This document shows positions 5,016 through 8,059 of a stretch of DNA of 10,675 nt, one piece after another (position 1 is the stretch's first letter; the number at the start of each line of letters is the position of its first letter). Source of the DNA: Gemmatimonadota bacterium (lineage in GTDB: Bacteria > Gemmatimonadota > Gemmatimonadetes > Gemmatimonadales > Gemmatimonadaceae). A program made the position numbers and the translations under genes. The stretch lies in the NCBI GenBank assembly GCA_028287205.1, contig JAQBQC010000017.1, positions 1 through 10,675 on the forward strand, read 5' to 3'. The notes beneath the pieces are model-generated. The model was not told the DNA's origin. It was given only the letters and a program-made list of their open reading frames with translations, and did no database searches.

Positions 5016-5165
5016 CTGGGGGCTGAACTTGCCGTACGTGTGAAAGCGCAGCTGAGTGGACGGCTTTAGGTTGTGGTGGTCGCGAACTCGCGTAGAGCAG
5101 GAGCGACACGGCCGGGTGTCTGATCGCAGGATGACACTGACGCCGGGACCTTGCAACCCCTCGGG
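5016..5165. promoter_or_regulatory. Divergent region between VWA gene and MFS exporter
   Basis: About 150 bp separate the two chosen starts, or 114 bp if the VWA protein begins at CTG 5051. Promoters for both genes would be expected here. No strong -35/-10 pair, operator palindrome or riboswitch-like fold was recognised. Confidence 0.4.
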
Positions 5166-6449
5166 ATGATCGACTCCGCACCACCGACGACGCTCACACC
5201 GCCGCGCGGGACGCCCTCGGGCGCGATCGCCGCGCCGCGCTACCGGAATCCGTTCTCGGTGCTCATCAAGCACCGGAACTTCCGGATCTTCTGGTTCGGA
5301 CAGACCGGCTCGCTCGTTGGCACCTGGATGCAGCAGGTGGCGCTCGGCTGGGTGGTTCTGCAGATCACGAACAGTCCGTTTCTCGTGGGCGTGGAGTCGG
5401 CGGCGGGTTCACTGCCGGTGCTGTTCTTCACGCTGTACGCGGGAGTGCTCGCGGACCGGCGCGACAAGCTGAAGCTCGTGCGGATCACCCAGGCGCTGCT
5501 GCTGTTCGAGGCGACGCTGCTCTGGTGGTTCAACTGGACCGGACACGTGACGATCGGCGTGCTCATTGGGATCGCGCTCTTCGGCGGGACCGCGAGCGCG
5601 TTCGACATCCCCACGCGGCAGTCGCTGATGGTGGAGCTGGTGGGCCGCGACGATGTGGTCGATGCGATCGCCTTGAACTCCAGCGGATTCAATCTCGCGC
5701 GCATCGTGGGGCCGAGTCTCGCGGCGGTGATCATCGATCGCTTCGGGCTGGCGTGGTGCTTCGCGATCAATGCGCTCAGCTACCTGCTCGTGCTGATCAG
5801 CCTCTTTCGCATCAAGCTGACGCCCAAGCCTGCGACGCACACCGATCTCTCTCCGACCGAGGGGTTGATGGAGGGGATCCGCTTCATGCGGAAGTCGCGC
5901 GAGGTGTCGCTGCTCATGAGCATGGTGACGGTGTACTCGATCTTCGGCATTCCGTATCTCGTGCTGATGCCGGTGATCGCGCGCGACACACTGCACGGCA
6001 CGGCGCGAACGTACGGGCTGCTGCTCGCGAGCGTGGGACTGGGCGCGGTGACGGGCGCGTTCGCGCTCGCGATGGTCGGGCGGCGCGTGCGGCGCGGGAA
6101 GGTGCTCGCCGCGGCGGCGTTCTCGTTCAGCACCCTGCTGATCGCGTTCTCCTTTTCGCGCAACATCTGGCTCTCGACGGTGATCCTGTTCTTCGCCGGC
6201 ATGACGATGATTCTCAACAATGCGCTGGCGAACGGGTTGCTGCAGACGATCACGCCCGACCATCTGCGCGGACGAGTGATGTCGGCGTATGCGTTCGTGT
6301 TCGTGGGGATGGGGCCGGTGGGCTCACTGTTGTCGGGGAGCGTGGCATCGGCGCTCGGTGCACCGGCTGCCATCGGGATAGGCGGCGGGGTGCTGCTCTG
6401 CTTCGCGGCGTGGGTGTTCGGGACGCGGAAGGAGCTCAAGGGGTTGTAG
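5166..6449 (+). CDS. Major facilitator superfamily exporter (MFS_3, EntS-like)
   Basis: This 427-residue, 12-helix-type transporter belongs to the MFS_3 group that includes the enterobactin exporter EntS. The cytoplasmic loop motif after helix 2 is LADRRDKLKL (95-104). Family landmarks are FDIPTRQSLM (146-155), ALNSSGFNLARIVGPSLA (169-186) and RGRVMSAYAFVFVGMGPVGS (368-387). Hydrophobic helices run throughout, and a short proline-rich N-terminal tail (1-29) precedes helix 1. The substrate cannot be read from sequence; members export siderophores, drugs or other small molecules. ATG 5166 is chosen, with an in-frame TTG at 5151 as an alternative. Neither has a clear Shine-Dalgarno. It is the only rightward gene between two leftward stretches and is followed by the long inverted-repeat region. 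Confidence 0.92.
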   Translation: MIDSAPPTTLTPPRGTPSGAIAAPRYRNPFSVLIKHRNFRIFWFGQTGSLVGTWMQQVALGWVVLQITNSPFLVGVESAAGSLPVLFFTLYAGVLADRRDKLKLVRITQALLLFEATLLWWFNWTGHVTIGVLIGIALFGGTASAFDIPTRQSLMVELVGRDDVVDAIALNSSGFNLARIVGPSLAAVIIDRFGLAWCFAINALSYLLVLISLFRIKLTPKPATHTDLSPTEGLMEGIRFMRKSREVSLLMSMVTVYSIFGIPYLVLMPVIARDTLHGTARTYGLLLASVGLGAVTGAFALAMVGRRVRRGKVLAAAAFSFSTLLIAFSFSRNIWLSTVILFFAGMTMILNNALANGLLQTITPDHLRGRVMSAYAFVFVGMGPVGSLLSGSVASALGAPAAIGIGGGVLLCFAAWVFGTRKELKGL

Positions 6450-6483: not shown

Positions 6484-6539
6484 ACCTGCCAACGGCTGGA
6501 CACGAATAACGGCGGCATGAGACGAATCGAACCCGACGA
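6484..6539 (+). repeat. Outer inverted repeat, left arm (56 bp)
   Basis: Begins ACCTGCCAACGGCTGGACAC and ends AATCGAACCCGACGA. It matches the reverse complement of 6804-6859 at 55 of 56 positions; the only mismatch is at 6497 (partner 6846). Arms this long and this clean are much larger than a normal terminator stem. They suggest either two head-to-head copies of a dispersed repeat or the ends of a small non-autonomous element. Confidence 0.9.
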
Positions 6540-6596
6540 AGACCGATCGCATCGCGCCTCCTCGAGTATCCACATCGCGCCTTGCGAGCTCCTTTA

Positions 6597-6627
6597 GTTT
6601 GTGTCCGTTCAATCCGTTTGTGTCCGT
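6597..6627 (+). repeat. Tandem 12-bp repeat, part of inner inverted repeat
   Basis: GTTTGTGTCCGT occurs at 6597-6608 and again at 6616-6627, a 19-bp period. The segment TTTGTGTCCGTTCAATCCGT (6598-6617) is the left arm of a perfect 20-bp inverted repeat with 6715-6734. A further 9-bp pair, GCGAGCTCC (6584-6592) and GGAGCTCGC (6641-6649), encloses this block. Confidence 0.85.
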
Positions 6628-6714
6628 ATCTCAGACTATTGGAGCTCGCCCTGAGCGGCAGTTCGTGATCCCGAGAGCGCGACCGCGCAGGTCAGGCTTT
6701 AACAAGTTGATGAT

Positions 6715-6734
6715 ACGGATTGAACGGACACAAA
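6715..6734 (-). repeat. Inner inverted repeat, right arm (20 bp)
   Basis: ACGGATTGAACGGACACAAA is the exact reverse complement of 6598-6617. Together with the outer arms it shows that 6484-6627 and 6715-6859 are two related copies in opposite orientation. They are well conserved at both ends and diverged in the middle. The left copy carries an extra unit, TTGTGTCCGT, after the shared 20 bp. Confidence 0.88.
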
Positions 6735-6803
6735 CGGATAAGTGCGAAACGAGAACGCGTGATGCTCGAGAAATGCTCGAGGATGCGAGGACGCCCTCCC
6801 TCA

Positions 6804-6859
6804 TCGTCGGGTTCGATTCGTCTCATGCCGCCGTTATTCGTGTCCGGCCGTTGGCAGGT
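6804..6859 (-). repeat. Outer inverted repeat, right arm (56 bp)
   Basis: Starts TCGTCGGGTTCGATTCGTCT and ends GTTGGCAGGT, the reverse complement of 6484-6539 with one mismatch. The 9-mer CGGCCGTTG appears inside its outer end (6845-6853) and again just outside it (6865-6873). It lies 32 bp past the stop of the leftward kinase-like gene, so it would be transcribed in that gene's 3' untranslated region. Confidence 0.9.
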
Positions 6860-6891: not shown

Positions 6892-7512
6892 TCACCCGAA
6901 ATGCTCGCGCGCGACCTGCACGACGATCGAGGTCGCGCGATCGATGCCAAGCCATCCGGTATTGAGACAGAGATGGTAGTTCTCGTGCGCGAGCCACGAC
7001 CGATTCCAGTGGGAGCGAATGTACTGCTCCCGCTGCCTGTTGCTCTCCGTCACGTACTTCTCCGCATCCTTGACTGAGAGCGACAGGCGCGCCGCAACGC
7101 GCGCGACGAGCTCCGACCTGGCCGCGTAGCACAACACGTGCAGCGAGTCCTCGCGCTCGCCGAGCACCCACTGTGCGCCGCGGCCGACGACGACGGTCGG
7201 GCCGGCGGCCACCGCCTCCTCGATGACGTTCGCCGTCACCTCGAGAATGCGCTCCTCGCTCGGCGGCAGCGTCGTCGGCCGCCCGGTGAGCACTTCGGGG
7301 GCGCCGAGCGCGAGCGCGTCCGCGATGCGCTGCACCAGCGTCGGAACTTTCTCCTCGCGTTCGACGACTTCCGCTACCGGGACGCCCAGTCGCTGGGCGA
7401 CGGCGTCGACGAGATCGTTGTCGACGAGCTGCCAGCCGAGAGTCGCGGCCACTCGTGCCGCCAGCTCGGCGCCGCCCGCGCCGACCATTCGCGAGATCGT
7501 GATCAGCGGCAT
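6892..7512 (-). CDS. Cytidylate kinase-like family protein
   Basis: At 206 residues this matches the cytidylate-kinase-like family (Cytidylate_kin2 type) of P-loop proteins. The N terminus, ITISRMVGAGGAELA (4-18), is the family's glycine loop, usually close to SRxxGSGGxxIA, and lacks the Walker A lysine, as is usual for that group. DNDLVD (31-36), VVVGRGAQWVL (107-117) and the Arg-rich lid-like stretch VTESNRQREQYIR (154-166) also fit. Family members are presumed nucleoside monophosphate kinases or related phosphotransferases, but the substrate is rarely shown, so classical CMP kinase activity should not be assumed. The ATG at 7512 puts the P-loop right at the N terminus, as expected. The frame is open upstream, but that part lies inside the acetyltransferase gene. 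It starts 13 bp after the acetyltransferase stop, on the same strand, probably in one operon. No Shine-Dalgarno is visible. Confidence 0.85.
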   Translation of the reverse strand: MPLITISRMVGAGGAELAARVAATLGWQLVDNDLVDAVAQRLGVPVAEVVEREEKVPTLVQRIADALALGAPEVLTGRPTTLPPSEERILEVTANVIEEAVAAGPTVVVGRGAQWVLGEREDSLHVLCYAARSELVARVAARLSLSVKDAEKYVTESNRQREQYIRSHWNRSWLAHENYHLCLNTGWLGIDRATSIVVQVAREHFG

Positions 7513-7525
7513 GTGTGCGTGCGAA

Positions 7526-8059
7526 TCAGCTGAGATGGCAGACCCGCAGATGCTCGACGACCTGAAAGCCGAGCGCATCCCAGACGGCGTTGGCGGTCTC
7601 GTTCTCGACTGCGTTGTGAAGCCGCGCCTCGCGAAGCCCGCGCGCGCGGCACCAGTCGATCGCCGCGGTGAAGAGCGCGCGGAGCACACCGTGCCGCCGC
7701 GCGGTCGGAACCACGTAGACGGACGAGATGTACCCGTGTCGCGCGGGGAAGAGCAGCGGCAGGCCCGCGCTCGTGATGCATCGCAGCACTCCAACCGCAA
7801 CGCCGTCGCTCTCGGCGAGGAAGGTCACTTCGCTCGAACATCGAAGCTGCGCCGCGAAGAGCCGGCTCGCGCGCGCCGGTGCATCGGGCCGCAGCCGGCG
7901 ATAGATCGGATTCTGCGAATGCTCGCGAAGGAGTGCGAGCCGAAGCTCGACGACGACGGCGAGGTCCGCCATCGTCGCTGGTCGCACGGTGAGCCCGGCA
8001 TCGAGGCGAGCATCCGCCTCGAGCGACTGTCGCTGGTCGCTTGCCGGATGCTCGATCAC
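7526..8059 (-). CDS. GNAT family N-acetyltransferase
   Basis: This is a 177-residue single-domain GNAT enzyme, which transfers acetyl from acetyl-CoA to an amine; the substrate is unknown. [17 protein letters not shown] (24-40) is the typical first strand and helix. [20 protein letters not shown] (111-130) is the acetyl-CoA-binding motif region. [19 protein letters not shown] (147-165) is the usual C-terminal motif (N..A...Y/W..lGF). In the CoA loop the pattern is RRHGVL where (Q/R)xxGx(G/A) is usual, so the last small residue is replaced by Leu. The start chosen is GTG 8059. It shares GTGA with the stop of the upstream ATPase gene and so suggests translational coupling. An internal ATG at residue 30 would cut into the domain. 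The longer upstream frame is Arg-rich and lies inside the ATPase gene. It is followed after 13 bp by the kinase-like gene. Confidence 0.88.

Follow-up and report, generated by a model that had tools for sequence, protein, structure and literature searches.

Background

Several kinds of short bacterial repeat resemble the subject of this report, a 376-bp inverted repeat at positions 6484-6859 of a 10,675-nucleotide stretch of a Gemmatimonadota genome (contig JAQBQC010000017.1, hereafter the window). Like miniature inverted-repeat transposable elements (MITEs), it is short and gene-less, has terminal inverted repeats, is dispersed between genes and contains apparent remnants of a parent gene; unlike in MITEs, the putative parent gene encodes a lone nuclease of the GxxExxY family and no transposase, and no target-site duplication could be named. 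With the repetitive extragenic palindromic (REP) sequences, bacterial interspersed mosaic elements (BIMEs) and REP doublets forming hairpins (REPINs) that accompany REP-associated tyrosine transposases (RAYTs), the element shares its palindromic, intergenic character and, in the scheme proposed below, a pairing with one or few genes. REPs carry GTAG/CGTC tags (PMC3733652, excerpt). In the present case no RAYT was found in the 68%-complete genome, the units are longer and consist of 9-10-bp repeats, and the partner protein would have a PD-(D/E)XK instead of an HUH fold.

The intervening sequences (IVSs) of 23S rRNA that carry an S23p gene, for example in Coxiella, are likewise bounded by inverted repeats and hold one small gene and no transposase; their functionality and origin are called unclear (PMC4990558, excerpt). 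The window element and the relatives examined differ from them in lying between protein genes, not in rRNA, and in their gene family, GxxExxY, while S23p genes elsewhere in the bacterial family of the window share the IVS layout. Dispersed, mostly intergenic arrays of short units, the spread of which is unexplained, are also represented by the heptamers of Xanthomonas and Nostoc (PMC4692102, excerpt), often as inverted pairs in Xanthomonas, and by the TAACTGA repeats of Beggiatoaceae (PMC4679880, excerpt). As far as these excerpts go, the units are of 7 bp, a length that agrees with S23p elements and differs from the 9-10 bp of the window element. The excerpt of the TAACTGA paper (2015) raises the repeat-binding protein itself as a possible mobile element; the terms "S23" and "four helix" are absent from both papers. 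A search of the open-access literature (subscription papers and preprints excluded) returned nothing that links GxxExxY to repeats or deals with its function, the family being named only in passing in the excerpts concerned, and a literature motif search with five 16-base repeats returned nothing related.

Results and discussion

Probable derivation of the window element

Our preferred explanation, to which we assign a probability of about 0.7, is that the 376 bp descend, in gene-less and folded-back form, from a small insertion element, the full form of which would comprise one GxxExxY nuclease gene (PF13366, PD-(D/E)XK fold) between inverted repeats, and that this derivative has spread in a MITE-like manner. 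The derivative reading is favoured because both halves of the element match the GxxExxY gene region in order, from the arm of an inner repeat unit (B) through a spacer into the gene start. The earlier note on this DNA, made from the sequence alone, had described two head-to-head copies of one sequence, and this arrangement is confirmed: each half presents, from the centre outward, a B arm, the spacer, a stretch resembling the GxxExxY gene start and an arm of a second repeat type (A).

The B unit consists of a left arm of TCCGTT repeats with a 9-10-bp period (6597-6627), a core (6628-6714), which in many other copies holds a GTTAGTGCC...GGCACTAAC pair (alignment of 13 copies from the same genome and 11 from relatives), and a right arm (6715-6739). 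In the right half, on the plus strand, the arm is followed by a 22-bp pre-start spacer (6740-6761), by ATGCTCGAGAA at 6762-6772, by a second ATGCTCGAG at 6773, and by the putative gene-start remnant (6773-6809), which scores 25 against the gene start of locus L108. In the left half, on the minus strand, the spacer (6596-6570) aligns colinearly with the stretch that separates the B arm from the gene start in loci L108 and L111, and the remnant (6569-6534) scores 21 against gene starts. Shuffled sequences score 10.6 ± 1.3, with none of 200 as high in either case; the two halves are inverted copies, and the two scores are hence not fully independent. The match to L108, a gene of genome G001 (G001-G004 being other genomes of the genus), runs colinearly from the B arm via the spacer into the gene start at 69 of 95 and 67 of 85 positions.

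The 22-bp distance, measured from the last ACGGAT to the gene-start anchor, is the same in L108 and L111. In L107 a second ACGGAT stands directly before the anchor, and the spacer is 22 by eye from the last unit of the array (-1 by script); in L109 it is 16 by script. Since the order and spacing of the B arm, the 22-bp spacer and the gene start are as in L108 and L111, a single colinear derivative is favoured over a B unit inserted into A, which is less likely. These sequence comparisons give good support to a derivation from a GxxExxY element: the window element reads as its 5' region present twice, head to head and lacking the gene, with A-type ends attached. The gene-start match extends to some other A copies: of six tested, those on contigs C421, C478, C154 and C544 score, on one of the strands, above every one of 200 shuffles, and those on C409 and C244 do not.

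The A-type outer arms (6484-6539 and 6804-6859) are identical at 55 of 56 positions, as reported earlier, with the sole mismatch at 6497, and reach 70 nt at 90% under looser matching. The 20-bp inner inverted pair described before is indeed perfect and can be taken to 21 bp (6597-6617 with 6715-6735), the 9-bp pair turns out to be part of an 18-nt pair (6584-6601 with 6632-6649) at 83%, and the 12-bp direct repeat with 19-bp spacing was located at 6597 and 6616. Both strands of the 376 nt were folded, giving -234.8 kcal/mol (z -18.9) for the plus strand and -224.4 kcal/mol (z -15.0) for the minus strand; none of 100 dinucleotide shuffles was as stable on either strand, and the inverted-repeat structure is far beyond chance. 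The element thus has terminal inverted repeats without a full gene, the open reading frames (ORFs) across the 376 bp being mechanical frames.

GxxExxY genes of the genus

GxxExxY genes lie downstream of several B copies. A PF13366 search found nine places in five genomes of the genus. At five of these (C242 of the window genome, G003:C32, G001:C98, G004:C262 and G002:C26) a B-type array or hairpin lies 5' of the gene, and at the first four of them the ATG falls within the last ACGGATG unit (both by eye). The gene on C86 of the window genome lies, again by eye, between A-type arms, and that of G002:C61 between weaker arms, with a terminal inverted repeat (TIR) score, as defined below, of 19.8; at G003:C107 no such repeat was noticed by eye. 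At G003:C181 (L112), a B-type array takes, by eye, the place of the gene start. The proteins retain D and E-x-K residues, as would be expected for this fold of nuclease. By sequence they gave no significant match in the PDB, and PADLOC returned only weak matches, to Cas4 (best 1.1e-4) and DpdE (0.02). Within the bacterial family, GxxExxY genes occur in 102 of the 148 genomes searched. One of the genes considered (L127) has two stop codons in the matched frame.

Dispersed repeat families

The window genome, which probably belongs to Gemmatimonadaceae, is a 3.09-Mb assembly of 574 contigs that is 68% complete (the window contig is labelled C258), and the named relatives of its genes are from Gemmatimonadaceae and other Gemmatimonadota, mostly metagenome-assembled genomes. 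The 376-bp query gave 47 blast matches in this genome, which fall into two families, the inner B unit (about 145 bp, 13 copies alignable) and the outer arms A, found again at eight further places (C421, C544, C154, C409, C478, C244, C86 and C180). After merging within 300 bp, B occupies 22 places and A nine; two of the B places, C492 and C506, look by eye like the same sequence at contig ends that overlap, leaving 21 distinct B places. Among 40 relatives, the query matched in three, all of the same genus, which accounts for four of the 40. The search that the earlier note had proposed shows further copies across the genome and the genus, and a chance local duplication was rejected on these grounds.

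None of 28 places within the fetched loci lies inside an ORF (simple ORF caller). Among the 24 rows that have a gene at either side, the neighbours are convergent in 10, tandem in 14 and divergent in none; in this count the window appears twice, the neighbour in two rows is the GxxExxY gene itself, the B places on C131 and C221 have no locus, and the A row at C180 is meaningless, falling beyond the fetched locus. A 31-nt consensus of the B-type outer end scored 25 at the right and 16 at the left of C492, 17 at C205, 21 at L107, and 16 and 18 at L112 (null maximum 17 of 600); this consensus was built in the analysis and is biased to its sources, and most other flanks of 18 places are near the null. 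CACTAAC/GTTAGTG motifs were the reason for considering a resemblance to integron attC sites. In a further genome, G017, one PF13366 match was found together with 47 blast matches of an arm palindrome (both strands; about 28 places when merged by hand), and the palindrome had no match in G042 or G125.

GxxExxY and S23p genes between inverted repeats

The generality of the layout was assessed using a TIR test, in which the 500 bp upstream and the 500 bp downstream of a gene are compared as mutual inverted repeats, with a threshold of 19.8 (the 99% value of mismatched pairs). The GxxExxY set comprised seven of the nine PF13366 places of the genus (the partial genes L112 and L113 were omitted), 13 of 18 named loci (L114-L116, L119 and L130 were omitted as repeats of genus genomes) and 30 loci from the bacterial family; the 30 loci of each family search are high-scoring picks, not a random sample, and the loci of one GxxExxY gene out of 50 and of three S23p genes out of 30 lay too near a contig end. 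The threshold was reached by 26 of 49 GxxExxY loci (24 of 42 outside the genus), compared to 1 of 980 shuffles, none of 73 other intervals of the GxxExxY loci, and none of 30 PIN-domain genes of the bacterial family (drawn from 59 genomes, those of GxxExxY and S23p from 148). The GxxExxY arms take forms such as ACCACAGAGGACACAGAG, ACCGCAGAGGACGCAGAGG or GCGGATGAAGCGGAT.

Because the IVSs of 23S rRNA pointed to it, the S23p family (PF05635) was tested as well. It occurs in 121 of the 148 genomes of the bacterial family, and none was found in the incomplete window genome. In the TIR test 23 of 27 S23p loci pass, compared to 1 of 540 shuffles; the control with other intervals covers GxxExxY only, the S23p loci being too short (0 intervals). 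A strong period was found in 24 of 30 S23p loci (7 bp in 18) and in none of 30 PIN loci. In both the family search (L162-L191) and the plasmids (L222-L229), S23p genes are enclosed by inverted arrays whose units mostly measure 7 bp, and these arrays may bear on the known heptamer repeats. The S23p relative in the PDB, 2gsc, is XCC0516, which a reference title assigns to Xanthomonas campestris, the species dealt with in the heptamer study (PMC4692102). The similarity of the arms is correlated with that of the proteins in both families (Mantel test on 300-bp flanks, with which 27 GxxExxY loci entered, r = 0.42; 23 S23p loci, r = 0.28; 0 of 5000 permutations each).

Plasmid loci were tested with 300-bp flanks, using eight of eight GxxExxY records and eight of 24 S23p records. 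At 19.8, seven of eight S23p loci (cyanobacteria, Azospirillum) and two of eight GxxExxY loci (Bacteroides, Sphingomonas) pass, with Bernardetia at 19.2. The 99% mismatched-pair value of the plasmid set itself is as high as 22.7 because the arms of different loci resemble one another; five of eight S23p loci reach it. On cyanobacterial plasmids, S23p genes also stand between genes of clustered regularly interspaced short palindromic repeat (CRISPR) systems (L223, L227), one between cas6 and cas4 and one between cas10 and a Cmr3-family gene.

Sites with and without the insert

The comparison of empty and filled sites, also proposed earlier, succeeded for an A copy and, for the copy in the window, revealed no empty site that was clean. 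The A copy on C154 has flanks whose matches are separated by 5 bp in G002 and by 39 bp in G001, compared to about 300 bp in the window genome. The equivalent site in G004 and in two G003 contigs (L249, L251 and L255) holds other, different repeat-like stretches by eye, as if it were a favoured site. Among related elements, the S23p element of the Nostoc plasmid pC052_D separates two ORFs which are direct neighbours in other Nostoc plasmids (91-95% identity), and pNsp_c carries one a gene further on. Further sites occur with and without the gene: nrdB/nrdA in Nostoc versus Calothrix (85% identity), the site after radA in Bacteroides versus Parabacteroides (73%, with a different sequence in a Phocaeicola record), and fabD/fabG in two Sphingomonas (72%). 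It is at the level of the family, on the A copy and related elements rather than on the window copy, that MITE-like behaviour finds support.

Proposed mechanism and alternative explanations

In the scheme that we favour, a parent GxxExxY element, itself presumably mobile, would have lost its gene body; the derivative would then have become a palindrome, perhaps through template switching at the hairpin of B, and may have spread as a MITE-like passenger. The cognate nuclease could recognize the short-period arms and cut the hairpin of the element or its target, upon which host repair would copy the element into intergenic gaps. This nuclease-driven step is the least certain part of the scheme, and we propose it tentatively, at somewhat less than an even chance. 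Copies that come to lie between converging or co-directional genes would persist, since they leave promoters unharmed.

Several results weigh against this scheme. To our knowledge, no activity of any GxxExxY protein has been described. As many as 23 of 49 GxxExxY loci fall below the TIR threshold, including all five B-type genes of the genus that were tested, with a strong hairpin confined to the 5' side in four of them and only half a unit in the fifth (L107); a one-sided palindrome (score at least 25) is in turn a weaker mark than the TIR, being found in 21 of 49 GxxExxY, 7 of 27 S23p and 7 of 30 PIN loci. A strong short period is present in only 12 of 50 GxxExxY loci (9 or 10 bp in 10 of the 12), and in the plasmid set one of eight GxxExxY loci reaches 22.7. 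The Mantel correlation would also arise if a gene and its arms were inherited together as a single unit. The window copy offers no clean empty site, G003 having B-type arrays of its own, G004 another coding stretch, and G001 and G002 another gene on the left. At the junctions examined (the C154 A copy and the plasmid-related sites), no duplication of a target site could be named; within the genus, the flanks are only 88-91% identical.

The same derivation could be combined with a different driver: an enzyme acting in trans that has escaped notice (a transposase, recombinase or reverse transcriptase) would move the element, and GxxExxY would either travel along or regulate its own repeats. Only the last step separates this explanation from the favoured one. 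The unrelated S23p family has the same layout, such that neither protein need mobilize anything, and a target-site duplication or other mechanistic mark was not seen; on the other hand, the arm period varies with the gene family (9-10 versus mostly 7 bp), the arm sequence tracks protein similarity, and GxxExxY retains the nuclease residues. We regard an enzyme in trans as possible, at about one chance in three. A structured RNA, or a 3' end element serving both directions (terminator, mRNA stabilizer or RNase III site), is unlikely to be the selected function, with spread as an incidental effect. Such a role would suit the very stable fold of both strands, the position of the window element between converging genes and the lack of divergent rows, but 14 of the 24 rows lie between co-directional genes, no terminator-like site was found in the element, presence and absence alternate at an orthologous site, and covariation lends no support in the B unit, where both sides have changed in 1 of 11 consensus pairs and most pairs hardly vary. 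Rfam, at gathering scores, gave no match over the window.

The earlier note had offered a dispersed BIME-like family, a MITE-like element and a structured RNA as possible readings. The dispersed or MITE-like part is supported, with copies in the genome and genus and empty sites of one A copy in two related genomes; the BIME/REP part is not supported, as no RAYT was found in the 68%-complete genome and the partner gene is that of the GxxExxY nuclease. REP-type repeats spread by a RAYT (Y1, HUH) transposase would also be palindromic, intergenic and numerous, with some copies in tandem. Against this, PF01797 has no match in the window genome (which, at 68% completeness, is not decisive), the unit of about 145 bp compares with 20-40 bp for REPs (PMC3733652, excerpt), and the partner gene has another fold, which makes this reading very improbable. 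A chance local duplication without relatives is practically negligible, given the copies throughout the genome and genus.

The favoured scheme points to a link between the GxxExxY family and scattered bacterial repeat families. In its broadest form, GxxExxY nucleases and S23p four-helix-bundle proteins would mark one undescribed class of transposase-free insertion elements, the ends of which are arrays with a family-specific unit (9-10 or 7 bp); many of the short-period repeats that lie unexplained between bacterial genes would trace back to gene-less derivatives of this class, possibly including the cyanobacterial and Xanthomonas heptamers, and the window element would be a folded-back derivative of one such element. 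We place this generalization just short of an even chance. Its extension to heptamers is weakened by the description of these as generally unassociated with mobile elements and located in regions of increased stability (PMC4692102, excerpt). If GxxExxY genes do belong to repeat-bounded elements, the protein family and the unexplained intergenic repeats would share a common, testable explanation, and S23p would be a candidate repeat-binding protein for 7-bp repeats.

Neighbouring genes

The 376-bp inverted repeat sits between two host genes outside the element. On its left lies a major facilitator superfamily transporter gene (5151-6449, plus strand; PF05977/PF07690), and on its right a convergent cytidylate-kinase-like gene (6892-7527, minus strand, with the listed ORF extending to 7800; PF13189), which is matched at 88-91% identity in all four other genomes of the genus.
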